Shown here: piece after piece, positions 36,631-62,871 of the stretch
How the letters are laid out: every line of letters begins with the position of its first letter
Position numbering within the stretch: the stretch's first letter is position 1
NCBI RefSeq assembly: GCF_017815515.1
Contig: NZ_CP072611.1
Location: 558,001 to 622,000, forward strand
Source: Aureimonas populi
Lineage (GTDB): Bacteria > Pseudomonadota > Alphaproteobacteria > Rhizobiales > Rhizobiaceae
DNA: 64,000 bases
Direction: 5' to 3'
Program-made: the position numbers and the translations under genes
Notes under the pieces: generated by a model
Databases searched by the model: none
What the model saw: only the letters and a program-made list of their open reading frames with translations
Told to the model about the DNA's origin: nothing

Positions 36631-37537
36631 GAGTCCGTCCGAGAATGGGTTGAGTGATCGGAGCGCGGCTGATTCCAGAGGGTATCTGACACCTGATCTG
36701 GAAACGCCATGTGGACCCCGACCACCCGGCGGCAGCATAGCCGCGACCACCTGCGATATGAAACCGACCTGACCGATGCCGAGTGGGGGATCATCGAGCC
36801 CATGCTGCCGAAGGGATGTTCGCGAGGGCGACCGTCGGCCTGGCCGACGCGCGAGATCCTGAATGCGATCTTCTACGTCCTGCGGGGTGGCATTCCCTGG
36901 CGGCTCATCCCCAAGGACATGCCGCCCAAGAGCACGGTGTTCGACCATTTCAGCCGCTGGCGCGACGCTGGCGTATTCGCGACCATCAACCACCGCCTCG
37001 TCATGAGGGATCGTGAGCGGGTGGCGCGCGATGCCTCGCCCAGCGCCGCCGTCATCGACAGCCAAAGCGTCAAGACAACCGAGGCCGGCGGGCCGAGAGG
37101 GTATGACGCCGGCAAGAAGGTGAAGGGTCGAAAGCGCCAGGCCATGGTCGATACGGATGGACGCGCCCTCGTTCTCGATCCTCAGCCCGCCAGTGTCCAG
37201 GACCGCGACGGTGCCGTCCCTGTCCTGCGCCTGTCGCGGCGTTCCTTCCCGTTCGTGACGAAGGCCTTCGCCGACGCAGGCTTTGCGGGAGAGCGGCCTC
37301 GCACCGCAACGCTGATCGACATTGAGATCGTCAGGAAACCGCCAGAGCAGATCGGATTCGCAATCCATCCGAGGCGCTGGGTCGTGGAACGCTTCTTCGC
37401 ATGGATCAGCCGCAACCGGCGCCTCTGGAAGAATACCGAGGCCACGCTCGCATCCGCCACAGCCTTCCTCTACGCCGCATCCGTCATGATCCTCCTACGT
37501 CGCATCGCTCGGGCATCATGAATTCCCGGACGGACTC
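36631..37537 (+). mobile_element. IS5-family insertion sequence, copy A
   Basis: A 907-bp element with ends GAGTCCGTCCGAGAAT and, inverted, GAGTCCGTCCGGGAAT. It is nearly identical to copy B 9808 bp downstream in the same orientation; I noticed two base differences. GTCTAA precedes the left end of both copies and TGA follows both right ends, so the true ends may lie a few bases further out. No clear target duplication is seen. Confidence 0.9.
36709..37521 (+). CDS. IS5-family transposase, copy A
   Basis: A 270-residue DDE transposase: DAEWGIIEPMLPKG (DUF4096-type start), GIPWRLIPKDMPPKSTVFDHF, VIDSQSVKTTEAGG (first Asp), ADAGFAGERP (second Asp region) and VVERFFAWISRNRRLWKNTE (Glu). A single open frame, whereas many IS427-group members need a frameshift. 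Differs from copy B at the Ser/Leu near residue 37 and Val/Ala near residue 225. Confidence 0.93.
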   Translation: MWTPTTRRQHSRDHLRYETDLTDAEWGIIEPMLPKGCSRGRPSAWPTREILNAIFYVLRGGIPWRLIPKDMPPKSTVFDHFSRWRDAGVFATINHRLVMRDRERVARDASPSAAVIDSQSVKTTEAGGPRGYDAGKKVKGRKRQAMVDTDGRALVLDPQPASVQDRDGAVPVLRLSRRSFPFVTKAFADAGFAGERPRTATLIDIEIVRKPPEQIGFAIHPRRWVVERFFAWISRNRRLWKNTEATLASATAFLYAASVMILLRRIARAS

Positions 37538-46438: not shown

Positions 46439-47345
46439 GAGTCCGTCCGAGAATGGGTTGAGTGATCGGAGCGCGGCTGATTCCAGAGGGTATCTGACAC
46501 CTGATCTGGAAACGCCATGTGGACCCCGACCACCCGGCGGCAGCATAGCCGCGACCACCTGCGATATGAAACCGACCTGACCGATGCCGAGTGGGGGATC
46601 ATCGAGCCCATGCTGCCGAAGGGATGTTTGCGAGGGCGACCGTCGGCCTGGCCGACGCGCGAGATCCTGAATGCGATCTTCTACGTCCTGCGGGGTGGCA
46701 TTCCCTGGCGGCTCATCCCCAAGGACATGCCGCCCAAGAGCACGGTGTTCGACCATTTCAGCCGCTGGCGCGACGCTGGCGTATTCGCGACCATCAACCA
46801 CCGCCTCGTCATGAGGGATCGTGAGCGGGTGGCGCGCGATGCCTCGCCCAGCGCCGCCGTCATCGACAGCCAAAGCGTCAAGACAACCGAGGCCGGCGGG
46901 CCGAGAGGGTATGACGCCGGCAAGAAGGTGAAGGGTCGAAAGCGCCAGGCCATGGTCGATACGGATGGACGCGCCCTCGTTCTCGATCCTCAGCCCGCCA
47001 GTGTCCAGGACCGCGACGGTGCCGTCCCTGTCCTGCGCCTGTCGCGGCGTTCCTTCCCGTTCGTGACGAAGGCCTTCGCCGACGCAGGCTTTGCGGGAGA
47101 GCGGCCTCGCACCGCAACGCTGATCGACATTGAGATCGTCAGGAAACCGCCAGAGCAGATCGGATTCGCAATCCATCCGAGGCGCTGGGCCGTGGAACGC
47201 TTCTTCGCATGGATCAGCCGCAACCGGCGCCTCTGGAAGAATACCGAGGCCACGCTCGCATCCGCCACAGCCTTCCTCTACGCCGCATCCGTCATGATCC
47301 TCCTACGTCGCATCGCTCGGGCATCATGAATTCCCGGACGGACTC
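46439..47345 (+). mobile_element. IS5-family insertion sequence, copy B
   Basis: The same 907-bp element as copy A, same orientation, inserted in the rhodanese gene. Together the two copies bracket about 8.9 kb with the LysR gene and the ureohydrolase-transport operon, the shape of a composite transposon, though outer flanking duplications are not seen. Confidence 0.9.
46517..47329 (+). CDS. IS5-family transposase, copy B
   Basis: A 270-residue intact DDE transposase with the same catalytic segments as copy A (IDSQSVK, ADAGFAGE, ERFFAWISRNRRLWKNTE). It differs at two residues I could spot (Leu near 37, Ala near 225). Both copies look functional. Confidence 0.93.
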   Translation: MWTPTTRRQHSRDHLRYETDLTDAEWGIIEPMLPKGCLRGRPSAWPTREILNAIFYVLRGGIPWRLIPKDMPPKSTVFDHFSRWRDAGVFATINHRLVMRDRERVARDASPSAAVIDSQSVKTTEAGGPRGYDAGKKVKGRKRQAMVDTDGRALVLDPQPASVQDRDGAVPVLRLSRRSFPFVTKAFADAGFAGERPRTATLIDIEIVRKPPEQIGFAIHPRRWAVERFFAWISRNRRLWKNTEATLASATAFLYAASVMILLRRIARAS

Positions 47346-49659: not shown

Positions 49660-51000
49660 ATGACGCCGACGAAGGTGCTTATCGGACAAATGCTGGTCGT
49701 GTTCGGCATCGCGCTTGCCGGCACATGGGCCGCGACGCAATGGGTCGCCTTCCAACTCGGCTTTCAGACCCGCCTAGGAGAGCCCTGGTTTCTCGTTGAC
49801 GGCCTTCCCTTCTACTATCCCTGGCGGCTGTTCGAGTGGTGGTATGTCTATGAGGCTTACGCGCCCGACGTTTTCCGCACAGGCGGCGCGATCGCCGGCG
49901 GCAGCGGCGTCGCCGCCGCATTGTCGGCGATCGTCGGGTCGGTCTGGCGCGCACGGCAGGCGAAGCATGTCACCACCTACGGTTCCCGCCCGCTGGGCCG
50001 ACCGTAAGGACATCACTGAGGCCGGCCTGAGCAAGCCGTCAGGCGTCTTCCTCGGCCTTATGGCCGGCGCCTATCTGCGCCATGACGGTCCCGAGCACAT
50101 CATGGCTTTCGCCCCGACGCGCTCCGGCAAGGGCGTGGGCCTGGTCGTGCCCACACTCCTGTCGTGGCCGCACTCGGCCGCGATCCATGACATCAAGGGC
50201 GAAAACTGGACGCTGACCGCCGGATGGCGCGCGCAGTTCTCCCATTGCCTCCTGTTCAACCCGACCGATCCCAAGAGCGCGGCCTACAATCCGCTGCTGG
50301 AGGTCCTCCGCGGCGTCCATGAGGTGCGCGACGTCCAGAACATCGCGGACATCCTCGTCGATCCCGAAGGCGCGCTGGAGCGCAGGTCTCACTGGGAAAA
50401 GACCAGCCATTCGCTGCTGGTCGGCGCGATCCTGCATGTCCTCTACGCCGAACAGGACAAGACGCTGCGCGGCATCGCCAACTTCCTTTCCGATCCAGCT
50501 CACCCTTTCGAGAAGGCGCTTTGGTCGATGATGACCACGGCGCATCTCGGCGAGGCCGGTCCGCATCCCGTCGTCGCCGGCGCCGCGCGCGAGGTGCTGA
50601 ACAAGTCCGAGAACGAGCGCAGCGGCGTGCTCTCCACCGCCATGTCGTTCCTCGGCCTCTATCGCGATCCGACCGTGGCCGAGGTCACGTCGCGCTGCGA
50701 CTGGCGCATCGCCGACCTGATCGCCGCCGGGCATCCGTCTCGCTCTATCTGGTCGTGCCGCCGTCCGACATCTCGCGCACCAAGCCGCTGATCCGCCTGA
50801 TCCTCAACCAGATCGGCCGCCGCCTCACCGAAAGCCTCGACGGGTCAGACGGCATCGAGCGCAAGCACAAGCTGCTCCTCATGCGCGACGAGTTCCCGGC
50901 GTTGGGAAGGCTCGATTTCTTCGAGAGCGCCCTGGCGTTCATGGCCGGCTATGGCCTCCGCTCCTTCCTGATCGCGCAGTCGCTCAATCAGATCGAGAAG
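49660..51000 (+). pseudogene. traG: Conjugal coupling protein TraG/VirD4, multiply frameshifted and truncated
   Basis: Three frames must be joined: MTPTKVLIGQMLVVFGIALA with membrane helices (to about 49985), then ADRKDITEAGLSKPSGVFLG, Walker A APTRSGKGVGLVVPTLLSW and IHDIKGENWTLTAGWR (to about 50735), then SLYLVVPPSDISRTKPLIRL and LLMRDEFPALGRLDFFESAL (Walker B region). The frame stops being TraG at about residue 435 of a normal 650. Coupling proteins link relaxosome and type IV channel. This copy cannot work. Confidence 0.9.
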
Positions 51001-51104
51001 GCTTCCGCAAGCTGATCCAGATCGTGTTCGGCCTGTCCATCGCCTTCGCGGCCAGCTCCTTCTTCCTCAGCTTCTTCTCGTTCGGCGGCGGGGTGCTGGT
51101 CTGA
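51001..51104 (+). pseudogene. trbC: trbC/virB2-like pilin, 3' fragment
   Basis: After the traG break the frame reads GFRKLIQIVFGLSIAFAASS plus FFLSFFSFGGGVLV, the C-terminal hydrophobic end of TrbC-type conjugative pilin. It directly follows the TraG remnant, so an internal deletion joined the two genes. Its stop overlaps the trbD start (TGATG). Confidence 0.75.
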
Positions 51105-51325
51105 TGGCCGCTGTTGTCGATGGCTTCGAGGTGCCTTTGCACCGCTCGCTGACCGAGCCCGTGCTGATGGGTGGTGCGCCGCGATCGGTCGCGATCCTCA
51201 ACGGCACGCTCGCGGCCGCCATCGGCATCGGCCTGCAATTGTGGATCGGCGGCGCCCTGCTCTGGATGGCGGGCCATCCGGGCGGACGCAAGCGGGTGTT
51301 CAAGGCAAGGCGAAAAGCGTTCTAA
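51104..51325 (+). pseudogene. trbD: trbD/virB3-like gene, altered C-terminus
   Basis: The start VDGFEVPLHRSLTEPVLMGG, then RSVAILNGTLAAAIGIGLQL, is a typical TrbD opening with its membrane helix. It then runs WMAGHPGGRKRVFKARRKAF and stops, where TrbD homologues continue with a different 25-residue end. It is probably truncated at the junction to the next fragment. Confidence 0.75.
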
Positions 51326-51394
51326 AGACCTTTCACCTATGGCGTTGTTGCATCACAGTGCGGGCCTCTCGCTGATAACAACAGGAGGTGCGCG

Positions 51395-51920
51395 CTGACC
51401 ATCGGCGACATCGTGCTGTTCAATATTTTGCTGCTCCAGCTCAACATGCCTTTCGAGATGATCGCCCGGTCCATCGATGATGTTGCCCGCTCACGTCCCG
51501 CGCTTGTCACCCTGGCGACTATGTGGGCCGCGTCGGAGGAGCGGCAGGTGTCGCAGGCGGCGTTCATCGTGCCTGGCAGCGGCCGGATCGCCTTCGAGGA
51601 CGTCGGCTACACCTATGGCAACGGCCGGGGCGTCGAGGGCATCTCGTTTCAAGCCGAGCGCGGCCGCATCACCTTCCTGACCGGCGAGACCGGGGCGGAC
51701 AAGTCGACGGTGTTCAGGCTTGCGCTCAAATCCATCGAGCCCGACAGCGGCCGCATCCTGATCGACGGCGTCGATCTCGCCGGCATCGACCGGACCGACT
51801 GGTATGCGATTGCTGCGGTCGTTCCGCAGGACGTCGTACTGATCAACGAGAGCCTGGCCGACACATCCTGCTCGGCCGTGAGCGCGACGACACCCGCCTG
51901 CGCCGCGCGGCGCAGATGCA
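51395..51920 (+). pseudogene. ABC exporter fragment (membrane end plus partial ATPase)
   Basis: TIGDIVLFNILLLQLNMPFE is the last part of an exporter membrane domain. The ATPase follows with IAFEDVGYTYGNGRGVEGIS and a mutated Walker A, GETGADKST (Asp for Gly). After [15 protein letters not shown] the frame shifts ([18 protein letters not shown] continues in another frame) and ends at a junction. N- and C-terminal parts are missing. It is not a duplicate of the intact exporter at 56437-58572 as far as I can see. Confidence 0.8.
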
Positions 51921-51924
51921 CAGC

Positions 51925-52045
51925 GGCCGGATCTCGACACCATGTCCCAGCGCATCGCGCACGATCTGGGCCGGGGCATAGAAGCCCATCGGCTGGCTGT
52001 TGAGCAGGGACGCGCAGAACACATCCGGATGCCAGCATTTGGCCG
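51925..52045 (-). pseudogene. dnaE2: Error-prone DNA polymerase DnaE2 fragment
   Basis: On the minus strand the frame reads [20 protein letters not shown] then [15 protein letters not shown], a segment diagnostic for DnaE2/ImuC ([10 protein letters not shown] ... DARRHGVEVRPVD). Only about 40 residues are preserved, joined end to end with the ABC exporter remnant. Confidence 0.75.
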
Positions 52046-52314
52046 AAAGGAACATGCGTTCGCCGCTGCTCAGTACCCCGAGAGCATCGGAGAGCGACAA
52101 CATGTCGGGCCTCAGGCTCCCAGGGCGAGACGAAGGAAGCACGCTATCCCCTGCAAACGTAACGAGCCCACCGGCCGGCGGGCTCGATGGGCTCTGTCGG
52201 CTCCGTCGGCAGGATGTCGGAAAGGTTCAGTCTCCTGCATGGGGCCCCAGATCTCCGATCTGCCTGACACCATGCGATGCCAACGCAAGACTGCGGGCGC
52301 CTGCCGGAATTGAT

Positions 52315-52491
52315 TTAGAGCTGACGCAGATAGCCGGTGGCGGAATTCCCAAACCAGGTCCCCCACTCGTTCCGCGTCAGGAACCAGTTTCCGATGCTGA
52401 TATCAAAGGCGCCGGAAACGGCGTCGATTTGCTCGGCCTTCAGCTCCTGCATATCGAAGGAAGCAGAATCCTTTTCGCCCAGAGCGGTCAT
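52315..52491 (-). CDS. Small double-glycine-type leader peptide (58 aa), next to ATP-grasp gene
   Basis: A 58-residue frame with AGGAGA 7 nt before its ATG. The leader ELKAEQIDAVSGA (residues 16-28) has the ExxxV-S-G-A layout of peptides cut by C39 exporters. The predicted core of 30 residues (FDISIGNWFLTRNEWGTWFG and ten more) is aromatic, with three Trp. It lies 84 nt after the ATP-grasp stop in the same direction. It could be a second precursor, either unmodified or modified differently; it has no TTxxxxEE motif. Confidence 0.65.
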   Translation of the reverse strand: MTALGEKDSASFDMQELKAEQIDAVSGAFDISIGNWFLTRNEWGTWFGNSATGYLRQL

Positions 52492-52575
52492 CAATCTTCT
52501 CCTGTCTCAACAGCCCGACATCGGGCTTCAGGGAAATGACTGCCACCCCGAAGATGGTCAATTAAGACACATGTG

Positions 52576-53550
52576 CTACAAAGGCGATGCGGGCCGCCGA
52601 CCATGCGACGGACGGCTCTTCGACGGTCCTTCGATGCGGGACCCCTTCCCCGAAGCGTCGTCCATAAGGCAATCGAGGATGGCGTCGCAAAGCCGTCCCC
52701 CGGCCGCCCTGTCGAAGGCTGCGAACATCGGCTGCGAGTTCACCTCCAGGAATGTCGGCTCGTTCTGGTCGTCGAGCATGAAATCGGCAGCAGCGAAGTC
52801 GAGGTCCAGTCGGTCGCACAGGGCCGTCAGGCCCTCGGCGATCCCGGCGGGAACGGGGACGGCTGCGATCGTCACGTCGCGCGTCTGCCGGTAATCCAGC
52901 TCGGGCGACTGAAGCGAGAAAGCCATGAGCTGCGGACCGATGCGATAGACGCGGAATTCGGGACGGCCGAGGCGCGGCTGGATGAAGCGGGGGCCGAGGG
53001 CTGAGGCTCGTTCCGTTTTCAGAAAGTCCTCAAGCAGACCTGTATATTCGCCTCCGGCAACCGGTTTCTGGATCAGGCGGGCCGTATCCGCCCCGAACGG
53101 CGCGAAATCGTTCGTCGCGATCGTTCGGGGAATGCGCAGGCCTGCTTCGTGCGCCGCGATCAGATTGTGGATCTTGTTATTCTCTCGCAGGGTGGTGCGG
53201 CGATTGAACATTCTTGCGTCGAGCCGGCTCTCGGCCCAGCCGCGAATGGCATGATACCAGTTGAACGCCTGCGCATGCGCTGCCGCCGTGTCTTCCGTCG
53301 GATACAGGAACACGTCTTGTCGGATGAAGAAGGCCGACGGGAACAGGAACTTGCCGTCCAGTTCGAAAGTGTGTTCCTGGATGTCAATCCTGAGCCGTGG
53401 CGGCTTTTCGGGTCCGACAAGCAGTCCATGGAACGGAATGCCACGCACCTTCAGGCGATCCACGAGTGCGGTGAGGTTCGTGTCGTACTGGCCGCCGGCG
53501 ATCAGGATCATGATATCAACGTTCTTTGTGTCGGCCCTCGCAGGCTGCAT
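52576..53550 (-). CDS. ATP-grasp ligase, putative graspetide macrocyclase
   Basis: The 324-residue protein has the ATP-grasp arrangement: an N-terminal pre-ATP domain (DIMILIAGGQYDTNLTALVD), the central LIQKPVAGGEYTGLL lysine segment, RFIQPRLGRPEFRVYRIG, and the metal-binding end DFAAADFMLDDQNEPTFLEVNSQPMF (Asp...Glu-x-Asn). The E-x-N-S/P-QP-FxAFD ending is typical of MvdC/MvdD-like enzymes that form ester or amide rings between Thr/Ser/Lys and Glu/Asp side chains. Its neighbour encodes a peptide with TTxxxxEE repeats, the expected substrate. An alternative start 13 codons in (MILIAGG) fits the family start better; neither has a strong ribosome-binding site. Confidence 0.85.
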   Translation of the reverse strand: MQPARADTKNVDIMILIAGGQYDTNLTALVDRLKVRGIPFHGLLVGPEKPPRLRIDIQEHTFELDGKFLFPSAFFIRQDVFLYPTEDTAAAHAQAFNWYHAIRGWAESRLDARMFNRRTTLRENNKIHNLIAAHEAGLRIPRTIATNDFAPFGADTARLIQKPVAGGEYTGLLEDFLKTERASALGPRFIQPRLGRPEFRVYRIGPQLMAFSLQSPELDYRQTRDVTIAAVPVPAGIAEGLTALCDRLDLDFAAADFMLDDQNEPTFLEVNSQPMFAAFDRAAGGRLCDAILDCLMDDASGKGSRIEGPSKSRPSHGRRPASPL

Positions 53551-53630
53551 GGCGACAGAAACGGATCGCGGTCAGCCCGGCACTCGCCGAACTGGCCGCG
53601 ATCCAGACGCCCGGATTGAGAGCAAGCCTG

Positions 53631-53831
53631 TCAGTTATGGATCTTGAGATCGAGCACCGGAGAGGGGATGAACCGGCCATCCTCCTCTCCCACCGCCAAG
53701 GTCGTTGCCCGCCAGCCGCCGTCTTCCTCGCCGACCGCCAGGGTCGTGATCGGAGCGATACGGCCCCCGCCGACCGCCTCACACTCCGCATCGGTCAGTG
53801 CGCGGGTCTCGTGATTGGCTTTCATCGTCAT
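53631..53831 (-). CDS. Graspetide-like precursor with double-glycine leader and two TTxxxxEE repeats
   Basis: A 66-residue peptide. GGAGG lies 5 nt before the ATG giving MTMKANHETR; a TTG four codons earlier is less likely. Residues 11-23 (ALTDAECEAVGGG) form a double-glycine leader; residues 29-38 and 43-52 are the exact repeat TTLAVGEEDG. TTxxxxEE is the core motif of plesiocin-type graspetides, in which the two Thr esterify the two Glu. Two such units would give two bicyclic hairpins. The ATP-grasp gene follows at 80 nt. Leader removal by the C39 exporter upstream in the cluster is inferred. Confidence 0.88.
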   Translation of the reverse strand: MTMKANHETRALTDAECEAVGGGRIAPITTLAVGEEDGGWRATTLAVGEEDGRFIPSPVLDLKIHN

Positions 53832-54000
53832 CTTGTCCTCCAAGAATTCGTGTCCCGCGGGGCACGTTCAGGCCACTGTGAGAAAAGGCCTCTTGGCCTC
53901 CGCGCCAGTAAATGGCGGCCGCGCCGGCGAACATCAATTCGCGCAGATGTACTATACGCGACAGGTAAGGATGGGCCGAACGCAGTCCCGAGCGTGGCTT

Positions 54001-55716
54001 TCAACCTTGGGAGTCCTCGCGTGCGCCCTTCGTGCGCTGGCGGCGCAGCCCGGTCAGCGCTGCCCGCAGCTCGATCGGGTGCAATGGCTTCTGAAGAAGG
54101 GGAATGTCGCGCCCCCCGAGCGCCTCCCGCACGCGTCCCTCGTCGTGCCCGGTCATTAGAAGCGCGGGGACAGCTCGTCCTGTCTGCGAACGCACGCGGT
54201 CGATGACGTCGATGCCAGAAATTGGCCCGTCGAGATCGAAGTCGCTGACGATGACATCGGGCCGCTCGGTGGCGAAGTCCGGCGAGGGCTCGGCCTGCAC
54301 GATGCAGCCCCAGCCCTGGAGGAGCAGCGAGGTCGCGCGCAGCACCTGAACGTTGTCTTCCACAAGGAGAACCTTGAGGCCGGCGAGGGGCTCGTAGTCC
54401 AGCGGCCGCTCCAGCCGCGCATCTCGTCCGGGCCGAGGGCTGCGCACGCGCGACAGGCCCTCGATCGCGAAGACCGTACCCTTCCCGGGTCGCGATGAAA
54501 CCCGTACGGTGCAGTCCAGAAGGTGGGCGAGGCGCCGGACGATCGAAAGCCCGAGGCCGATGCCTTCCAAGTCCCGGCCGGGCTGCGGTATGCGATAGAA
54601 CTCGGTGAAGATGTTCTCGATCTCCGCATCGGGAATGCCAGGGCCCCGGTCAACGACCCAGATGGAGAGCGTCCCGCGCTGGCGGCGGCAGCCGACCAGC
54701 ACGTCGCGGCCCGGCGCGTACTTCAGAGCGTTGGAGACAAGGTTCTGGACAATGGTCTCCAGAAGCGCGCGGTCGCTGCGTACGGACGCACGGGTGCCCA
54801 CCAGGCGCACGCGCCGCTGGATGGAACGGTTGCGGTCAACGACCTCGGTAAGAAGCCTTCCGACCGCCACGGGCTCTGGCTGTATGGCGATCCTCCCGCT
54901 GTCCAGCATTGAGATGTCCAGCAGGCTGCGGAACAGGCGCGACACGCTGGCGAGTGAGCGGTCGATACTGTCCACCATCTGCTTCTGGTTGTCACTCAGG
55001 CTTTCTTCACGAAGGCACGCCGTGAACAGGCTGATAGCATGAATGGGCTGACGCAGGTCGTGACTGGCCTGCGCCAGGAAGCGAGACTTGGCGAGATCGG
55101 CCGCCAGGGCCGCATCCCTTGAACGCCGGGTCTCGCGCAGGAGAATATTGGCATAGACCGGTACGATCAGCGCCGTCAGCGACAACATGCCGACGAGGAA
55201 CGGGTGCTGTTGCCAGAACGGCGACAGAAGTCCGATCAGCAGGACGCTGGCCTGCGAGGCGGCGGTGCTGGCAAGCAGATATCTCGGCCCGAAACGCATG
55301 CCGTAGCCGACAGTCACCCAGATGAGCACCGCATAAATCGGAGAAGAGAATTCGTCCCCTAATCCGATAGTCGCTGAAATGAGGCCATAGTCAGCAAGCA
55401 TGCAGAAAAGGCGGCGCCCGGTCGACGCGTTCGGCAGAAGCAGAAAGGAAGCCCGGATGGCGAAAGAAAGGCCGAATGCGCCGGAGAACATCCAAGCATA
55501 AACTGTACTGATTTCAGCCGATACGAAGCCAAGTCTCTCGCCCAGCATCAGATATAGATTCGCCAACGCGACAATAACGATGCGGATGTTGGCCTGCTCG
55601 AGTTCGTGGCGGGCTGCCGGCAGGTCGGACGCCGCCGTCCGGAAGCTGCCGACGAAACCCAGCTTGCTCCCGCCGCTGGCCTCCGCATCTACCGCCGTCT
55701 GCGCCTCCGGCCTCAA
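54001..55716 (-). CDS. Hybrid sensor histidine kinase with C-terminal receiver
   Basis: A 571-residue protein with TTG start overlapping the regulator stop (TTGA). Residues 30-185 hold about six membrane helices. The kinase has [20 protein letters not shown] (phosphorylated His in an RQP-type H-box), [11 protein letters not shown] (N box), [22 protein letters not shown] and [13 protein letters not shown]. The receiver has LLVEDN, Asp in [11 protein letters not shown] and Lys in LLQKPL. The membrane-sensor plus receiver layout recalls RpfC-type quorum sensors. With the LuxR-type regulator it should control the peptide cluster; a secreted peptide as signal is a guess. Confidence 0.92.
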
Positions 55717-56366
55717 AGCCCCAACTCGGCTGCGCGGAATGCGGCCGCGCTCCGGGACGAGACGTTCAGGGCCCGCAGAAGCGCCGAGACATGAATGCGC
55801 ACCGTGAAGGGGGAGAGTTGCAGGTCGTATGCGATCTCCTTATTGGTCTTGCCTTGAGCGAGACGGGCGAGAACTTCACGCTGGCGCGGGGTGAGAGCGC
55901 CAAGATGCGACGGGCAGTCCTCGTCGAGTTCGCCGTCCTCAGGGGGCTCGGTGAGCACGACCAGGTCGCCATCGAGCACCGCCTCCACCGCTTCCGCGAT
56001 CGCCTTGGGCGGCACGCTCTTGCAGACGAAACCGTTGGCACCGCTCTCCAACAGCCGCCGGATCTCCTGTCGGTCCTCGATCATGGAGACGATCACGATC
56101 GCCGTGGTTGGGAACTCGCGACGCAGGCACGGAAGGCTCTTCTCGATGCAGAAGCCCGGAAAGCGGACGTCGAGAAGCATTGCCGTCGGCGGTATGCCTT
56201 CTCTTGCAAGCGCCAGGACCTCTTCGAAGCAGCCGGCCTCGGCGATCTCGGCCGTGGGATGGTTGCGCAGCATGAGCCGTTTCAGCCCATCGCGGAACAG
56301 CGGATGGTCGTCCGCCACGATCATGCGTCGAGGCTGCCGATCCATTTCCTTGGTACTCCATGGCAT
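55713..56366 (-). CDS. LuxR/NarL-family response regulator
   Basis: The 217-residue protein has a receiver ([20 protein letters not shown], Asp in [11 protein letters not shown], Lys in GFVCKSVPP) and a LuxR HTH ([43 protein letters not shown]). The first ATG is used; an ATG seven codons later (MDRQPRRM) has GGAG at better spacing. It overlaps the kinase start by 4 nt, which makes a clear two-component pair. It is 70 nt after the exporter gene. Confidence 0.93.
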
Positions 56367-56436
56367 GCGTATTCACCGCCTCCCGTCGGTCCTCGTCTCC
56401 AAGATAGCAATCGTGTCCCGTGCGCTGAAGAGAAGA

Positions 56437-58572
56437 TCAACCTCCCACCGGCGTCAGACCGGTCGGCGAGGACGACACGGGGACGACCCGACCCTCCTGC
56501 ACGCGGAAGACGCGCGAGGCGTTGCGGATCAAAGCCGGACGATGCGCGATGACGATCCGCGTGATCGGCAGTGAAGCGATCAGGCGGGCGATCTCCTCTT
56601 CCGTCTGCTCGTCCAGATTGGCCGTTCCCTCGTCCAACAGGAGCAGTCGCGGCTGGCGATAGAGCGCACGCGCAAGGAGAAGGCGCTGGCGCTGACCGCC
56701 CGACAGGGCGGCCCCCATGTCCCCGATCAGGGACAGGTACTGCATGGGCATGCGCACGATGTCGTCGTGAATGCGAGCAGCGCTCGCAGCGACCGCAACC
56801 CTTTCCATGTCAAGGTCGGGGTCGAAGAAGGCGATGTTGTCGGCGATCGAGCCCGAAAGGAGTCGGTCGTCCTGGGCAACGACGCCGACCTGGGTGCGCC
56901 AAGCCTGCCAGAGCTCCGGCGTCGCCCTCCGTCCGTCGAGCAGCACCTCGCCCGTCTCCGGCTCGTGAAGCCCGAGCATCAGCTTGAAAAGCGTGCTCTT
57001 GCCGCCGCCGGACGTTCCCGTGATCGCGACATAGTCTCCCGGCTCGATGGCAAGGCTCACCTGATCGAGTACGAGGGGATCGGAAGCGCCATAGCGGAAC
57101 GCAACGTCGCGAAGCTCGATACTGCCGCCGGCTTCGTGTGCCGCCCCGGAAGAAGCCGCAGGAAGGGCGCCCGCCGCCATAGCGATGTCGGCGATGCGAT
57201 TGAGGTGTACTTTCAAAAGCCGGAACTGGATCACCTCCGTCACCAGCGAAAGGGTGCGGTCGCTGAAAGTCTGCCGGAAGGAGAGGAACGCCATCAGCAT
57301 TCCGATCGACAGCCCGTCAGCGCCGATGATGGAACGTGCGCCGAGATAGATGACGATCACCGTCTGCAAACCAATGATGACGTTCTGAAGAAATCGTAGC
57401 GTGATCTCGTACTTGCCGAGCGAGACCGAGGCGTTGATCACCGAGGCGTATCGATTGCGCCAGCTTGCCTCCCGTTCGGATTCTCCGCCCATGATCTTGA
57501 TCGTTGTCGCGGCGCGCACCGTCTCCATAAGCTGCGTCTGCTCGCGCGCCGAGGCAATGAGTTGCTCCTGCGTACGAGCGCGCATCACCGGGTAGAACGC
57601 CAGGGAAATGCCGAGCACCAGTGCCAGCGACAGGCAGACAACGAACGCCAGAAGGGGCGAGTAGAGAAAAAGGATGAAAGCGGCGAGGATGGCCATCAGG
57701 CCGTCGATCAGGGCCACTGCCATGCCGCGCGTCACCGCGTCCTGAATGGCGTTGGTAGATTCGATCCGTGAGATGATATCGCCGACATGGCGCTTCTCGA
57801 AGAAGGACGACGGCAGGCGCATGAGATGGCGTACGAGGTTGCCGACGATCTGGAACAGCATCATCGAGCCAAGAATCCGCACGACCCAGGCCCGGACGGC
57901 TTCGAGCCCGGCATGAATGAAGGTCAAAGCGCCGAAGCCGAGCGCGAGAACCGTCAGCAGATCGGCATCGGCCCGAGCGATCGCCTCGTCGACCACGAGC
58001 TGGATTTGGAACGGTAGCGCGAAGGCGGCGACCTGAAAGGCCAGCGATAGGCCGAGAATCTGGAAAATCGCGGGCCAGATGCCTGTCAGGCGGGACCAGA
58101 GATCGCTGAGCCGCAGCGTCTCCTTCGCCTCGATCTTTTCGAAACCAGCGGCTGGTGCGAGTTCGAGCGCGACGCCGGTGAAATGCCGCGACAACTCGTC
58201 GATCGGCATCCGGCGCTCACCAAGCGCGGGGTCGTGAATGACAGCAGCGCGGGCGGATACGGACTTCAACACGACGAAGTGGTTGAAGTCCCAGTGAAGG
58301 ATCGCCGGAAGGGCGAGCTTGGACAGGGCTTCGAGGCCGACGCGCAGAGCGCGTGGAGCGAGGGAAAGTTGCGTCGCCATCTGCATGAGGCTGCGAAGGC
58401 TCGCCCCACTCATGGAAACCGGGAAACGCTGCCGCAGTCCGTTCAGGTCGACCTCATGACCGTGAAAGCTGCCGACCATGGCCAGGCATGCCAGGCCGCA
58501 CTCGGCGCCCTCACTGGCGAGGACGACGGGGAGCCGTCTCGTCCGGGAAAAGTTCAGTTCCCGTATGCTCAT
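56437..58572 (-). CDS. C39-peptidase-containing ABC exporter (bacteriocin/double-glycine type)
   Basis: A 711-residue protein in three parts. Residues 1-140 form the C39 domain: PVVLASEGAECGLACLAMVG has the catalytic Cys, WDFNHFVVLKSV the His and VIHDPALGERRM the Asp. The usual oxyanion Gln (LQSEAAECG) is Ala here. Then come six membrane helices (about 155-430) and an ATPase with Walker A GTSGGGKSTLFKLML, signature ALSGGQRQRLLLARAL and Walker B RLLLLDEGTANLDE. It should cut double-glycine leaders and export the peptides. Start chosen as the ATG overlapping the HlyD stop, 13 codons inside the longest frame. Confidence 0.95.
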   Translation of the reverse strand: MSIRELNFSRTRRLPVVLASEGAECGLACLAMVGSFHGHEVDLNGLRQRFPVSMSGASLRSLMQMATQLSLAPRALRVGLEALSKLALPAILHWDFNHFVVLKSVSARAAVIHDPALGERRMPIDELSRHFTGVALELAPAAGFEKIEAKETLRLSDLWSRLTGIWPAIFQILGLSLAFQVAAFALPFQIQLVVDEAIARADADLLTVLALGFGALTFIHAGLEAVRAWVVRILGSMMLFQIVGNLVRHLMRLPSSFFEKRHVGDIISRIESTNAIQDAVTRGMAVALIDGLMAILAAFILFLYSPLLAFVVCLSLALVLGISLAFYPVMRARTQEQLIASAREQTQLMETVRAATTIKIMGGESEREASWRNRYASVINASVSLGKYEITLRFLQNVIIGLQTVIVIYLGARSIIGADGLSIGMLMAFLSFRQTFSDRTLSLVTEVIQFRLLKVHLNRIADIAMAAGALPAASSGAAHEAGGSIELRDVAFRYGASDPLVLDQVSLAIEPGDYVAITGTSGGGKSTLFKLMLGLHEPETGEVLLDGRRATPELWQAWRTQVGVVAQDDRLLSGSIADNIAFFDPDLDMERVAVAASAARIHDDIVRMPMQYLSLIGDMGAALSGGQRQRLLLARALYRQPRLLLLDEGTANLDEQTEEEIARLIASLPITRIVIAHRPALIRNASRVFRVQEGRVVPVSSSPTGLTPVGG

Positions 58573-59876
58573 CCCATCCGTCCGACGGCGTAGAGCGGGT
58601 CGAGCAGCCATTCCAGGAGCGTGCGGCGGTCGATGACGACGTCGGCCGAGAGCAGCATGCCTGGTTGGATCGGAATTTCCTGTCCATAGGCGTTCACGCT
58701 GTCACGCTCCAGGCGGACCTTCACCCGGAACACAGGCTCACGCAGTTCGAGGCCGGGAACAGAGATGTCTCCAGGGCCAAGCACGGTGCGGGACACCTGC
58801 TGAACTGTACCTCGCCCCGTTCCGAACTTCTGGTAGGGGAAGGCCTGATACATCAGGCGAACCTCTTGTCCGGACTGAATGAACCCCGCGGCTCTGGAAG
58901 GAATGAAGAGTTCGGCCTCCAGGCTGCTACCGGCCGGAGTGATCGCGGCGATCATCGCGCCCGCGGCCACGTCCTGCCCGAGCGAGACCGGTACGGCGAC
59001 GACGCGGCCCGCAACAGTCGCCCCGACGACATGGCTGTGGCGCACGGCCGCCTCCGTCTGCCGCTGTGCGAGCGCGGCTTGCGAGATCCGCGCCTGGGCT
59101 GTCGCCGCTTCGATTTCCAGCGGCAGCGAGCGGGCCCTCGCGTCAAGTTCACCGATCTGTCGTTCGTAGCTCAGGATGGCGGCACGCGCCTGGGACACCT
59201 CCTGCCGCGCGACGAGCTCGGCCATGCGTGCCTCTTCGAGATTCCTCTGCGTGAAGACGCCGCGCTCGGCGAGTTGCTCGGCACGCCCCACGTTGCCGCT
59301 GAGAAGCTCGGCGCGCTCAACCAGGGTCGAAAGGCCCGAGCGGCTCTCCGCGAGTTCCAAGGAAAGGGCCTCCCGCTGTGCCGTCACCTGCTCCTGCTCG
59401 GCGAGGAGCTGCTCGCGCGCGGCCGTCGCCTGCGCCTCGGCAGCTTCCGCCTCGGCGCGCAGCTGATCGGCGATTAGAACACCGGCATTGCCTCCACTGA
59501 AATCGGACGAGACCCTGACAAGTGCTAGCGGCTGCCCGGCCTGAACCTCGTCGCCCTCCGCGACGTCGATTCGTTCGACGATCCCAGCTTGCCGTGCGCC
59601 GACCCGTATCAACCCTCCTTCTGGCACCACCCATCCGGTCACGCTCTCCATCCGGGCATAGGTGGCGGTGGAGACGAAGGCGAGACCGGCGACCACGACG
59701 ATCATGCCGGCGATGCCAAGAACCCGGGACTGCACAGGCTGGGCGAGAACGACCTCTCCCTCCAGACGCCGGGTCTGGCTGACGACGGCTTCGTTGCGGA
59801 ACAAGGGAGAGGGCGCGGATTCGGGCGGTTTGGACTTCGTCCGCTTATCCGTGGGTGCCCGTGCTACTTCCACCAT
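58569..59876 (-). CDS. HlyD-family secretion adaptor
   Basis: The 435-residue periplasmic adaptor has a cytoplasmic N-terminus, a membrane helix near residues 47-70 (VLGIAGMIVVVAGLAFVSTA), a biotinyl-lipoyl-like half (EGGLIRVGARQAGIVERIDV) and a long coiled coil (residues 130-270, rich in Glu, Ala and Gln). It then has VGATVAGRVVAVPVSLGQDV and a beta-barrel end. It links the exporter to an outer-membrane channel; no TolC-type gene is in the window. It overlaps the ABC gene by 4 nt. It is the first gene of the minus-strand cluster. Confidence 0.94.
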   Translation of the reverse strand: MVEVARAPTDKRTKSKPPESAPSPLFRNEAVVSQTRRLEGEVVLAQPVQSRVLGIAGMIVVVAGLAFVSTATYARMESVTGWVVPEGGLIRVGARQAGIVERIDVAEGDEVQAGQPLALVRVSSDFSGGNAGVLIADQLRAEAEAAEAQATAAREQLLAEQEQVTAQREALSLELAESRSGLSTLVERAELLSGNVGRAEQLAERGVFTQRNLEEARMAELVARQEVSQARAAILSYERQIGELDARARSLPLEIEAATAQARISQAALAQRQTEAAVRHSHVVGATVAGRVVAVPVSLGQDVAAGAMIAAITPAGSSLEAELFIPSRAAGFIQSGQEVRLMYQAFPYQKFGTGRGTVQQVSRTVLGPGDISVPGLELREPVFRVKVRLERDSVNAYGQEIPIQPGMLLSADVVIDRRTLLEWLLDPLYAVGRMG

Positions 59877-60334
59877 TAACGCCGATCGACATTTTCTTCA
59901 TCCACTGGCCGGATCGAAGGATGCGAAACTGCCTCCGGCCAACATTCTGAAAACATAAGGGCGCAATCCATGTCGCGGATATCGGCGTCCGTCAAATAGT
60001 ACAGATGACCTATACTGAATCGAACTGGCCATCATGTCCCGCCCGATCTTGACCGGATCGCGCGTCCTTTTGTTTTCCGTCCGTTCTCGCCTCCAATTGG
60101 TGCGGGGCATTATGAGAGAGCTTTCTGACGGCATGCAGCGGTCGCAGACCTGCGAAGATAAACATCAGGGGTTAGTGCATTTGGGCTAGTTGACCCCGTC
60201 GGTCTATGAACAATAATCCGCCTTCGTGTTGATGAAATAACAGACGATGGATTATCTAAGTCACAATCCGGATGGATGTGTGTTTTATCATCTATGTAAA
60301 ATAAAATATATTTATGAAACTATAGGAGTAATAC
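59877..60334. other. Divergent control region between HlyD gene and small peptide genes
   Basis: About 460 nt without a supported gene. From 60200 to 60330 it is very AT-rich, which suits promoters for the plus-strand peptide genes; the minus-strand operon should start in the other half. I cannot single out a regulator site. Confidence 0.45.
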
Positions 60335-60472
60335 ATGAAATGCCAGGGTGAATGTCTGGAGATTACTCGGGAGCTCGCTTCGAATGAGATCGATCAAGTT
60401 GCGGGCGGCGTTCACTTGGGCGGTGTGCTGGACAGGGTTGCACAATATCTCTGGAGCCTGAGCCTGAGATAA
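60335..60472 (+). CDS. Double-glycine leader peptide 1 (45 aa)
   Basis: A 45-residue frame with AGGAG 7 nt before its ATG. The leader ELASNEIDQVAGG (residues 13-25) shares the pattern of the other cluster peptides. The predicted core of 20 residues (from VHLGGVLDRV) ends in a hydrophobic, Trp-containing helix with C-terminal Arg. Too short for usual gene callers. Presumed substrate of the C39 exporter. Confidence 0.75.
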   Translation: MKCQGECLEITRELASNEIDQVAGGVHLGGVLDRVAQYLWSLSLR

Positions 60473-60680
60473 GGACTTAATTCGCCTGGCGACGACGCCG
60501 TACACCAAATCGCTGGGAGGCGGATCAGGCGTATACGAAATCCCTTCGTCAATCGGCGTTTCGAAGGGGAAGCGGAGTGCTGGCCGGCATCCTATTATTT
60601 CCGATGCTCGGGCATTTCGCGATTAGTGGTGCCGCGCCAATTTGATGACGCGGTCGATCGGACTCTTAATGGAGGTCAAA

Positions 60681-60839
60681 ATGCGTGAACTGACAAATCA
60701 AGAGTTGGAAACGGTGAACGGCGCGGCCGCCCCGCTTCTGTTCGTTGCGGCGGTGGCTCTGTCGAGGGTAAGCGCGGGTAGGGTCGCGACCTATGTTGGT
60801 GCCCAACTCGGCGCCGCCGGCTATTTCATGACACAGTGA
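60681..60839 (+). CDS. Double-glycine-type leader peptide 2 (52 aa)
   Basis: Starts at the ATG after GGAGG (5-nt spacing). The leader MRELTNQELETVNGA is short, ends in Gly-Ala, and matches the shared pattern. The core of 37 residues is Ala/Val/Gly-rich with GxxxG spacing (GAQLGAAG), as in class II bacteriocins that insert in membranes. The frame is open upstream but the codons before the ATG are not leader-like. Confidence 0.8.
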   Translation: MRELTNQELETVNGAAAPLLFVAAVALSRVSAGRVATYVGAQLGAAGYFMTQ

Positions 60840-60884
60840 ATCAGTTCGGCGTTTGAAATCACATATAACTAAAGGAATGCTAAG

Positions 60885-61070
60885 ATGTCTTTTTCTCCAA
60901 CGCATGAACACTTCGCCAATCATCTGACAGACGAGGAGATCGACCTCGTTTCCGGCGGAATCGCACCGCTTGCCCTCGCCGTAGCCTTCGGCAAGGGTTT
61001 CGCGGGTGGCGTAGGTGCCGCCGCGGCTGTCCACACCGCAGGACGCTTCGTTCGCCTGTTGGCCAGCTAA
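60885..61070 (+). CDS. Double-glycine leader peptide 3 (61 aa)
   Basis: A 61-residue peptide with AAGGAA upstream of the ATG. The leader ends HLTDEEIDLVSGG (residues 13-25), a textbook double-glycine site. The 36-residue core is hydrophobic and Gly/Ala-rich (FGKGFAGGVGAAAAVH), with several GxxxG-like spacings, and ends RFVRLLAS. Together with peptide 2 it could form a two-peptide bacteriocin; that is inference. Confidence 0.85.
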   Translation: MSFSPTHEHFANHLTDEEIDLVSGGIAPLALAVAFGKGFAGGVGAAAAVHTAGRFVRLLAS

Positions 61071-61127
61071 GCCCACCTTGAGATATCGCCGTGTCGGGCG
61101 GGCTCGTCCTTACTGCTCGATACAGTC

Positions 61128-61157
61128 CGTCGAACGCTCCCAGTGGAGCGTTCGACG
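61128..61157. repeat. Perfect 13-bp hairpin between peptide genes 3 and 4
   Basis: CGTCGAACGCTCC pairs fully with GGAGCGTTCGACG over a CAGT loop. There is no T-tract on either strand, so it may protect the upstream peptide mRNA, mark an RNA-processing site, or be a protein-binding dyad. Confidence 0.7.
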
Positions 61158-61286
61158 AGGATAAAGAAAGGTGTGTTGCCCCGCTCCTCGATGACCAAAT
61201 GGTTAATCGGGCTGGATCGGGAAACCCACTCGAACAACGACGGCCGGCTCCGCGCTATTGCCGCCATCTGCAAATTGGAATGAGAT

Positions 61287-61436
61287 GTGAGAGATCAATA
61301 TGCCTCCGCATCCGACGCGAGAATTATGGTTTTGACGCCGGATGAGATCGCCTCCATCGGAGGTGGCATCAGGGCGTCCGGGCTTTCCGTGCGGATCACG
61401 GTTGCGGCGATACGCTATCTCATTGGCAAGCTTTAA
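61287..61436 (+). CDS. Double-glycine leader peptide 4 (49 aa, GTG start)
   Basis: The frame begins with GTG, preceded by GGAATGAG; an internal ATG at 61326 would cut the leader to 14 residues. VLTPDEIASIGGG (residues 15-27) is the leader end, matching the others. The core of about 22 residues (IRASGLSVRITVAAIRYLIG and two more) is amphipathic and basic. The IS256-like element starts 150 nt later. Too short for routine annotation. Confidence 0.7.
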   Translation: MRDQYASASDARIMVLTPDEIASIGGGIRASGLSVRITVAAIRYLIGKL

Positions 61437-61583
61437 GGGATAGTCATCAGGCGAGACTGTCACACCGTCGATATCGTGTGATGGATGCCGCCTGTTTGCC
61501 GAGCTTGATTTCCGTTCTTTTGACGGGGTCTTCGGTTGGACGTATGCCAAGCCTCTCGGTGTGGCTTTCCCGCGAGATCCCGT

Positions 61584-62871
61584 GGGACTGTCAGGAATTC
61601 TGTGCGGGAGGCCGTTTCTTCGTCAGGGGACGAAGCGTTCTCCAAAGACGACAGCGAACTGCGTCTTGGCCTCGATCCACTCGCGGGAGGGGGGCGTTTC
61701 CATTCCTCGGCGGCGTGGTTGAGGACGAGGTATAGCAGCTTCATGGCCGCATCGTCATTGGGGAAGTGGCCCCGCGTTCGAACAGCGCGGCGCAGCTTGG
61801 AGTTCAGCGCCTCGATGGCGTTCGTGGTGTAGATGATCCGGCGCACGCCCTCGGGGTAGGCGAAGAAGGGCACGACCTGGGCCCAGTTCCGCCGCCAGCT
61901 CAGCGCGATCGCCGGGTAGCGCCGGCCCCATTCGCCGGCCTCGAAGGCTTCCAGGGCTTTCATCCCGGCCTCCGCGTCCCGAGCCCGGTAGATCGCCCGC
62001 AGCGCCGGCACCACGGCCTTGCGGTCCTTCCAGGAGACGAACTCGAGCGAATGGCGGATCAGATGGACGATGCAGGTCTGCACGACGGTCTCGGGGAACG
62101 CGGCGTTGATCGCCTCCGGGAAGCCCTTCAGCCCGTCGACCACCGCGATCAGGACATCGGCAACGCCGCGGCTCTTCAGCTCGTTCATGACGCGCAGCCA
62201 GAACTTGGCGCCTTCCGTCTGCTCGATCCAGATCCCCAGAATCTCCTTGGTCCCGTCCGGAAGGATGCCGAGCGCGACGTAGACCGCCTTATTGCGCACG
62301 AACCCCTCGTCGCGAATCTTCACGCGGATCGCGTCGAAGAACACCAGGGGGCAGCAGGCATCGAGCGGGCGGTTCTGCAACTCGGTGACCTCATCGAGCA
62401 CCGCGTCGGTCACTGTCGAGATCAGCTCGGGCGAGACGTCGATCCCGTAAAGATCCGCCCGATGGCCGCGGATCTCGCGCACCGTCATGCCACGGGCGTA
62501 CATCGAGACGATCTTGGCGTCGAAGTCCGGGAAACGGAGCTGATACCGGGCGATGAGCTGCGGATCGAAGGTGCCGGCCCGATCGCGGGGGGTCGCCAGA
62601 TCGATCTTCGAGGTGCCCGTCAGCATCGTCTTCTTCGACGAGCCGTTGCGCCGGTTCGGCATGCTCCCCTTCGACATGCGCGTCGAGCTCGGCGTTCAGA
62701 ATGCGCTCCGACAGCGCCTTCTTCAGATCGTCCGGAAGCCCGTCACGGGCGAAAACCTCCTGCGGGTCGCGTCCCGCAAGAAACTGGTCCAGAAGCTCTT
62801 TGTCGATGCCCATGCGATGGTCCTTTCCTTTCCATCATCATGGCCTCCCGCACAGAATTCCTGACAGTCCC
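61584..62871 (-). mobile_element. IS256-family insertion sequence (defective)
   Basis: About 1.29 kb bounded by perfect inverted repeats: GGGACTGTCAGGAATTCTGT reads at the left end, and its complement at the right end, with at least 28 matching bases. I see no target duplication. The transposase inside is frameshifted. It lies between the peptide cluster and the metal transport operon. Confidence 0.9.
61623..62813 (-). pseudogene. IS256-family (mutator-type) transposase with frameshifts
   Basis: The start MGIDKELLDQFLAGRDPQEV and onward to ILNAELDAHVEGE is in one frame. Near 62675 the frame changes and RFPDFDAKIVSMYARGMTVREI, FFDAIRVKIRDEG (first Asp), VVDGLKGFPEAI (second Asp) and YTTNAIEALNSKLRRAVRTRG (Glu) follow. 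After EEWKRPP another shift at a C-run near 61694 separates the proper end (REWIEAKTQFAVVFGERFVP). Two shifts make it inactive unless recoded. Confidence 0.88.

Follow-up and report, generated by a model that had tools for sequence, protein, structure and literature searches.

A graspetide gene and several linear double-glycine peptides around one C39 exporter in Aureimonas populi: a candidate multi-payload secretion cassette

Introduction

Group 2 graspetides carry two side-chain esters per core repeat. Serine-protease inhibition has been reported for plesiocin, and group 2 graspetides show high co-occurrence with NHLM-type transporters (accessible text of PMC13097080). In the accessible text of a second source, all graspetides characterised up to its publication are protease inhibitors, about half of the precursors have double-glycine (GG) motifs, and ATP-grasp loci do not as a rule encode a C39 peptidase, yet a cluster of C39/ATP-binding cassette (ABC) transporters, with 433 occurrences, and HlyD proteins, with 191, are among their common neighbours (PMC8939145). 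Here we describe a locus of Aureimonas populi in which a graspetide precursor and its ATP-grasp ligase lie beside five further small GG-leader frames, around one C39 exporter. The window, by which we mean the whole stretch of 64,000 nucleotides analysed, covers positions 558001–622000 of the 3.82 Mb single-contig genome, and the cassette lies at window positions 52315–61436.

A preliminary description of this DNA had proposed that a graspetide module and several GG peptides of unmodified appearance are grouped about a single C39 exporter. This arrangement is present and recurs in other genera; judged from sequence, it is real and recurrent, with differing plain peptides in other bacteria. The description also knew of no system with such a set, which holds in part: C39-exporter loci of group 2 are already known (accessible text of PMC13097080 and PMC8939145), and what is new is the accompanying set of linear peptides. 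No description of such a set beside a graspetide was found in the accessible literature on graspetide loci.

Results

Six small frames with a common leader

Six small GG-leader frames are present in the cassette (Table 1), with the coordinates and leaders first proposed for them, and the C39 exporter, HlyD adaptor, histidine kinase/LuxR pair and ATP-grasp ligase of the preliminary description are likewise open frames in their places. The strict pattern L-x3-[EQ]-hydrophobic-...-[VI]-x-G-[GAS] is found in six small frames between 52200 and 61500 and in none in the remainder of the window, and shuffling the 9.3 kb region 300 times gave a mean of 0.003 matches (maximum 1); the window frames also agree with L-x3-E-[IL]-x2-[VI]-x-G-[GA]. 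A 13-residue leader profile from which the window had been left out scored the six frames at 13.6–27.6 bits, pepF lowest. Its best score on 1.28 Mb of shuffled window sequence was 12.7 bits, and 400 kb sampled from this genome contained one match above 13 bits (13.3 bits, a spurious-looking acidic low-complexity frame). Shine–Dalgarno (SD) matches of at least 4 nt precede five of the six frames and 44 of the 46 GG frames of the window and loci L009–L021 (described below), versus 361 of 1507 mechanical frames of 40–90 amino acids; the two without a match are pepF and one frame of L015. Five frames are secure, and pepF is weak and the least secure.

The minus strand begins with the overlapping frames of HlyD adaptor and C39 exporter, followed by those of LuxR regulator and hybrid kinase, which overlap as well, and then by graspetide precursor, ligase and pepA; pepC, pepD, pepE and pepF lie divergently on the plus strand.

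Table 1. Features of the cassette, in window coordinates.
Feature	Coordinates	Strand	Remarks
pepA, GG-leader peptide	52315..52491	-	core FDISIGNWFLTRNEWGTWFGNSATGYLRQL; 26.0 bits; SD 5 nt
ATP-grasp graspetide ligase	52576..53511	-	frame open from ATG 53550; start at internal ATG 53511
Graspetide precursor	53631..53831	-	leader RALTDAECEAVGGG; core 2x TTLAVGEEDG; tail PVLDLKIH
Hybrid histidine kinase	54001..55716	-	HisKA, HATPase, receiver (Pfam); hydrophobic N-terminal region
LuxR-type response regulator	55713..56366	-	Response_reg + GerE (Pfam)
C39 peptidase-containing ABC exporter (PCAT)	56437..58611	-	PF03412, 115.8 bits
HlyD-type periplasmic adaptor	58569..59876	-	TIGR01843, 144.2 bits, below cut-off 208.65
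12-bp word	59979..59990	+	ATATCGGCGTCC; upstream of HlyD and pepC
pepC, conserved GG peptide	60335..60472	+	core VHLGGVLDRVAQYLWSLSLR; SD 5 nt
pepD, GG peptide	60681..60839	+	core AAPLLFVAAVALSRVSAGRVATYVGAQLGAAGYFMTQ, no Asp/Glu; 20.5 bits; SD 5 nt
pepE, GG peptide	60885..61070	+	core IAPLALAVAFGKGFAGGVGAAAAVHTAGRFVRLLAS, no Asp/Glu; 26.7 bits; SD 5 nt
pepF, probable GG peptide	61287..61436	+	core IRASGLSVRITVAAIRYLIGKL, net +4; 13.6 bits; no SD

The graspetide precursor and its ligase

The precursor is best assigned, from its leader and core, to the plesiocin-like (group 2) graspetides. It starts at ATG 53831, as does database entry P0001, and has 51 other database matches at E<=0.01. Together with 12 relatives it aligns over R-x-L-x3-E, V-x-G-G/A, TTLAxGEEDGG, TTMAxGEE and an L(D/E)xxxH tail, the Leu and His of which are invariant in all 13. 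The Protein Data Bank entry 7drm_E, PsnA2(14-38), reads KVTGG..TTLAIGEE like the window core, a weak match (E 0.69). The ligase, whose start was corrected to the internal ATG used in most homologues, is PsnB-like in sequence (phmmer E 5e-14 to PsnB, 7drm) and in predicted fold (AlphaFold model with a mean confidence score, pLDDT, of 87.6; best Foldseek matches PsnB, E 2e-19), and it reaches 60.4 bits against TIGR04187, under the cut-off of 350.

Some related ligases have multi-repeat precursors, with seven (L022:9712-9990), four (L024:9574-9972) and eight (L025:9393-9719) TTxxxGEE-type repeats. Those of L022 and L025 begin their repeats within the first six or seven residues and have no N-terminal leader, database proteins P0034 and P0052 likewise open with a repeat, and the L024 precursor has an 18-residue basic N-terminus ending in GG; the ligases of such precursors may recognise the repeats themselves. 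By frame scan, the distant ligase loci L056 and L058 have no GG peptide and no TTxxxGEE core, and L057 has no GG peptide; core-like tblastn matches are present in L057.

The linear peptides

None of the other five window cores has a TTxxxxEE motif. Three of them, pepD, pepE and pepF, lack Asp and Glu, and therefore cannot form graspetide esters; to call them unmodified is well founded, and the same is likely for pepC, with one Asp in its core. The pepA core has one Asp and one Glu and no TTxxxGEE motif. Against bacteriocin families, pepE reaches 28.1 bits with TIGR03949 (cut-off 21.5), pepD passes neither PF10439 nor TIGR03949 (18.1 bits with Bacteriocin_IIc, below the cut-off of 27.1), and pepA, pepC and pepF match neither of these two. 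The most likely starts of pepA and pepD are ATG 52491 and ATG 60681.

The question raised by the preliminary description, whether related loci lack these frames, received a mixed answer from 17 loci (tblastn, E 0.01). No pepA, pepD or pepF was found in them, and pepE gave short matches in L018 and L021 only; pepC is present in three, and other loci have different GG peptides nearby. In the protein database pepE found only itself at E<=1, among 4 candidates.

pepC is a conserved family under purifying selection. It has relatives in L009–L011 and in 13 database proteins beside the window's own; these database relatives share [VA]-H-L-G-[GN]-x-x-[SND]-[RQEK] and, nearer the C-terminus, Q-[YH]-L-W. 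Between the window and L009–L011 the core (VHLGG...QYLWS) is nearly unchanged at 0.68–0.76 uncorrected differences per synonymous site, and the ratio of non-synonymous to synonymous differences per site (pN/pS) is 0.17–0.19. Core pN/pS is 0.04–0.05 for L009 or L011 against L010; over the whole of pepC it is 0.12 for these pairs and 0.45, from five differences only, for L009 against L011. For five of the 13 database relatives the longest contig has the size of that of a precursor cluster (7771, 13925, 11935, 42499 and 6527 bases), and these five probably share a contig with a graspetide-precursor cluster.

Leader position -7

The canonical GG leader has a hydrophobic residue at -7. This is so in 34 of 35 plain leaders of the window and related loci (Ile 17, Leu 8, Val 8, Met 1; the other has Thr), in contrast to the 13 graspetide precursors, which have Cys (6), Thr (3), Tyr (2), Gln (1) and, in L012, Leu (1); for Ile/Leu/Val/Met, Fisher's test gives 2e-9, on rows that are not independent. 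The L012 and L013 precursors, below the threshold of the frame scan, were added to this count from the alignment of 13. In database precursors of the same type -7 is mostly Cys, with His, Gln and Thr occurring too. It is Leu where the leader is of the LFIEDLGKVTGG type, and the residue therefore cannot serve as a rule throughout group 2; it may be a local device that lets this ligase distinguish its substrate from the neighbouring peptides.

Exporter and two-component system

The exporter aligns with PCAT1 (4ry2; E 3e-94), including the Cys, His and Asp that we take to be catalytic. Against the NHLM_micro_ABC1 equivalog (TIGR03796) it scores 490.8 bits, below the cut-off of 853.3. PF03412 matches nothing in the genome but its C39 domain, which strengthens the case that one exporter would serve all six peptides. 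The C-terminal region of the kinase resembles NahK/ErcS types (291 bits, below the cut-off of 400).

The 12-bp word of Table 1 also stands ahead of exporter/pepC genes at L009:5679, L010:5761 and L011:5680 (one mismatch in L011), and is absent upstream of the precursor gene even when two mismatches are allowed; it is a possible regulator site, offered as a lead. The upstream stretches tried had no promoter palindrome in common, and no structured RNA was found in 51000–62000 at E<=0.1.

Recurrence in other genomes

A single ligase scan of genome contigs gave 17 loci: L009–L011 from Rhizobiales (L010 is Rhizobium wenxiniae), L012–L014 from Halomonas, L015 and L017–L020 from Paracoccus, L016 from Aureimonas altamirensis, and L021–L025 from four metagenome-assembled genomes and a Bradyrhizobium. 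Extra GG peptides, one to six each, occur in 10 of 10 graspetide loci, the window included, with a C39/HlyD exporter or adaptor fragment nearby, and in none of the 8 without (L013, L014, L017, L020, L022–L025; Fisher p 2e-5, rows not independent). Above 13 bits there are 5 in the window, 4 in L009, 5 in L010, 2 in L011, 1 in L012, 6 in L015, 1 in L016, 4 in L018 (5 at 12.5 bits), 4 in L019 and 2 in L021. In L015 and L019 the adaptor is a mere fragment at a contig edge (24 and 32 aligned residues), and the L017 contig spans 7 kb and includes masked bases. Matches in L023 (18.1 bits) and L024 (14.8 bits) were set aside, as they lie inside long housekeeping-like frames that look like serine hydroxymethyltransferase; those at window position 19994, L012:17661 and L019:5302 (9.8–10.2 bits) fall below threshold.

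As C39 exporters usually adjoin their substrates, the number of extra peptides is the fairer control. Eight plasmid loci with exporters 43.9–48.9% identical, hand-picked from 30 listed of 737 records in a plasmid collection that had no ligase match (E 1e-10), have 0–1 GG peptides each at 12.7 bits, seven of the eight carrying one. Once hits are filtered for SD sites and limited by distance, graspetide loci exceed controls in mean extra peptides at 13 bits (3.2 vs 0.75; Mann–Whitney p 0.0009), 10 bits (3.3 vs 1.0; p 0.0025) and 8 bits (3.8 vs 1.1; p 0.0014), on rows that are not independent and with a profile that was trained on graspetide loci and may undercount GG peptides in controls. Two control peptides have distinctive cores, one very Arg/Lys-rich (L065:4570-4743, Rhodobacter plasmid) and one with six Cys (L060:9157-9363, Asticcacaulis plasmid).

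Among the 35 plain cores, 14 have no Asp or Glu, 28 have at most one, and 25 are net positive. One type is Gly/Ala-rich with GxxxG, often with an A/I-P start and a GYxxG..R end, to which pepD and pepE are loosely similar; another, in Paracoccus, is Pro/Trp-rich and cationic (e.g. LFLPWPRPWPLPWQPFPRWPIL in L015); the others are short cationic cores (pepF, L015, L019), longer Gly-rich ones (L009–L012, L016) and pepC. An amphipathic-helix signature was rejected, not being above control. The Pro/Trp-rich peptides of the Paracoccus graspetide loci (L015:1266-1394, L018:15340-15495, L018:15179-15394) look like mammalian Pro/Trp-rich antimicrobial peptides.

At E<=1e-20 the ligase occurs in at least 2 of 397 genomes of the order and at least 2 of 385 of the class (the window and one other in each); these are lower bounds, as no more than 6 candidates were scored among the genomes listed. 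It occurs in 7 of 61 relatives at E<=0.001, and in 2 of 21 species genomes of the genus.

Mosaic origin and flanks

Identities between the window and L010 are 85% for the exporter, 73% for the adaptor, 61% for the ligase, 47% for the regulator and 44% for the kinase, and with L016 they are 44, 29, 54, 66 and 63% in the same order. The DNA of pepC–pepF was found in none of the 20 other species genomes of the genus. Judged from these mosaic identities and the patchy distribution in the genus, the cassette is assembled from modules, probably by horizontal transfer. Its left flank (49796–52003) holds a split conjugative coupling-protein (T4SS-DNA_transf) gene and an ABC fragment, and its right flank (61460–62813) a Mutator-family transposase split over two frames. 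Plasmid carriage was considered and rejected, the plasmid collection having no near DNA match, no ligase at the threshold given above and no pepC (E 0.1).

Elsewhere in the window, two nearly identical 270-residue transposase-like frames (36709–37521 and 46517–47329) enclose amino-acid ABC transporter and ureohydrolase-like genes (named by reading), a composite-transposon-like block.

Discussion

The reading that we prefer, at a probability of roughly 0.55, is a secretion cassette with several payloads, under regulation and probably of antimicrobial function, whose ligase would select a single precursor while all the peptides would share one peptidase-exporter. The ligase would close Thr-to-Glu side-chain esters in both TTLAVGEEDG repeats of one precursor, the only one with a fitting core and a fitting leader (polar or Cys at -7), and the other peptides would pass unmodified. 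The C39 domain would cut all leaders after Gly-Gly or Gly-Ala, the cores would be exported through HlyD and an unlinked TolC, and the two-component system would set expression. Outside, the linear peptides would most likely form an antimicrobial mix with fast turnover of its members, and the graspetide would act as a serine-protease inhibitor. Shared export, antimicrobial action and the graspetide's protective role are what we infer here.

Several points weigh against this interpretation. The loci are few, were found with one ligase query and are related to each other, and the control locus L065 reaches three matches at 10 and 8 bits. Within the window, pepA, pepD, pepE and pepF are not conserved in related loci, pepF has no SD match, and reading frames gave no recognisable immunity gene, with no search dedicated to small immunity proteins. 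The hydrophobic moments of the plain cores are not above those of random protein segments. At -7 there are exceptions: Leu in L012, Val in database precursor P0027 and Leu in plesiocin-type LFIEDL leaders. Some C39 exporters are narrow in substrate choice, and this one may therefore not serve all six peptides.

It is possible, with a smaller share of our confidence, that the exporter is shared by convenience, functionally unrelated payloads gathering at a C39 exporter that accepts any GG leader. Payload sets differ strongly among loci, a GG peptide also stands in 7 of 8 C39 exporter loci without a graspetide, and the window is a mosaic, with an exporter 85% identical to that of L010 and a kinase and regulator nearer to L016; against this, graspetide loci have more extra peptides than the eight control loci, and five of 13 pepC relatives probably lie on the same contig as a graspetide-precursor cluster. 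We think it unlikely that one or more GG peptides are pheromones for the neighbouring kinase (autoinduction of the ComC/BlpC kind) and not weapons. Kinase and regulator do sit between exporter and precursor gene, and regulator matches recur in L009–L011, L015–L017, L019 and L021. However, pepC is nearly constant between the window and L009–L011 though the kinase is 44–45% identical, and tracks the exporter (84–85%), a lack of co-variation that disfavours pepC as kinase ligand; the C-terminal region of the kinase, too, resembles NahK/ErcS types.

Loci with several graspetide precursors are described in the accessible text of PMC8939145, and the extra peptides might by analogy be further ligase substrates with unusual ring patterns. 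This is very improbable, as 14 of the 35 extra cores have no Asp or Glu, for which the idea is rejected, and the residue at -7 differs; absence of TTxxxxEE-type motifs was the criterion by which the 35 had been chosen. That the frames arose by chance in a mobile region undergoing decay, which broken mobile genes on both flanks and the weak pepF might suggest, is rejected for five of the six by leader scores, shuffles, SD sites and selection on pepC, and we give that explanation almost no weight.

A bolder and rather doubtful proposal is that the graspetide is a bodyguard, a serine-protease inhibitor that leaves by the same pump as the protease-sensitive linear antimicrobials and shields them, with crosslink sorting written in leader position -7. 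If true, protection would take place outside the producer or in the target periplasm, and selection would keep both chemistries in one cassette. To our knowledge, little is established about what graspetides do in nature, and the recurrent pairing with linear peptides provides a concrete test of the inhibitor's purpose. The locus also poses a natural sorting problem, with one exporter, one leader type, one enzyme choosing among leaders and a candidate discriminating residue, while pepC, along with the Paracoccus cores that are Pro/Trp-rich or cationic, offers short antimicrobial candidates.

Comparison with known systems

The window exporter shares its domain order and C39 catalytic residues with PCAT1 (4ry2), and differs in that it would work with an HlyD adaptor and several substrates. 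With class II microcins and GG bacteriocins the locus has in common the GG leader, the C39 exporter and (for microcins) the HlyD adaptor, and with multi-bacteriocin loci such as blp several cores per exporter and a two-component system. Unlike these, its cores fall below the Pfam bacteriocin cut-off (pepE alone passes TIGR03949), a graspetide is added, and reading the frames revealed no immunity gene. Graspetide loci with multiple precursors (chryseoviridin, branch 5 loci) also have several GG precursors per locus, but there, in the accessible text, the precursors are treated as graspetide substrates (PMC8939145), whereas all but one in the window are without the motif. Closest is plesiocin, whose PsnA–PsnB pair shares with the window the TTxxxGEE core repeats, the GG leader and the single PsnB-like ligase. 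The window precursor nevertheless represents a distinct subfamily, with an R-x-L-x3-E-[C/T/Q/Y] leader and a conserved L(D/E)xxxH tail, and its graspetide is accompanied by unrelated linear GG peptides.

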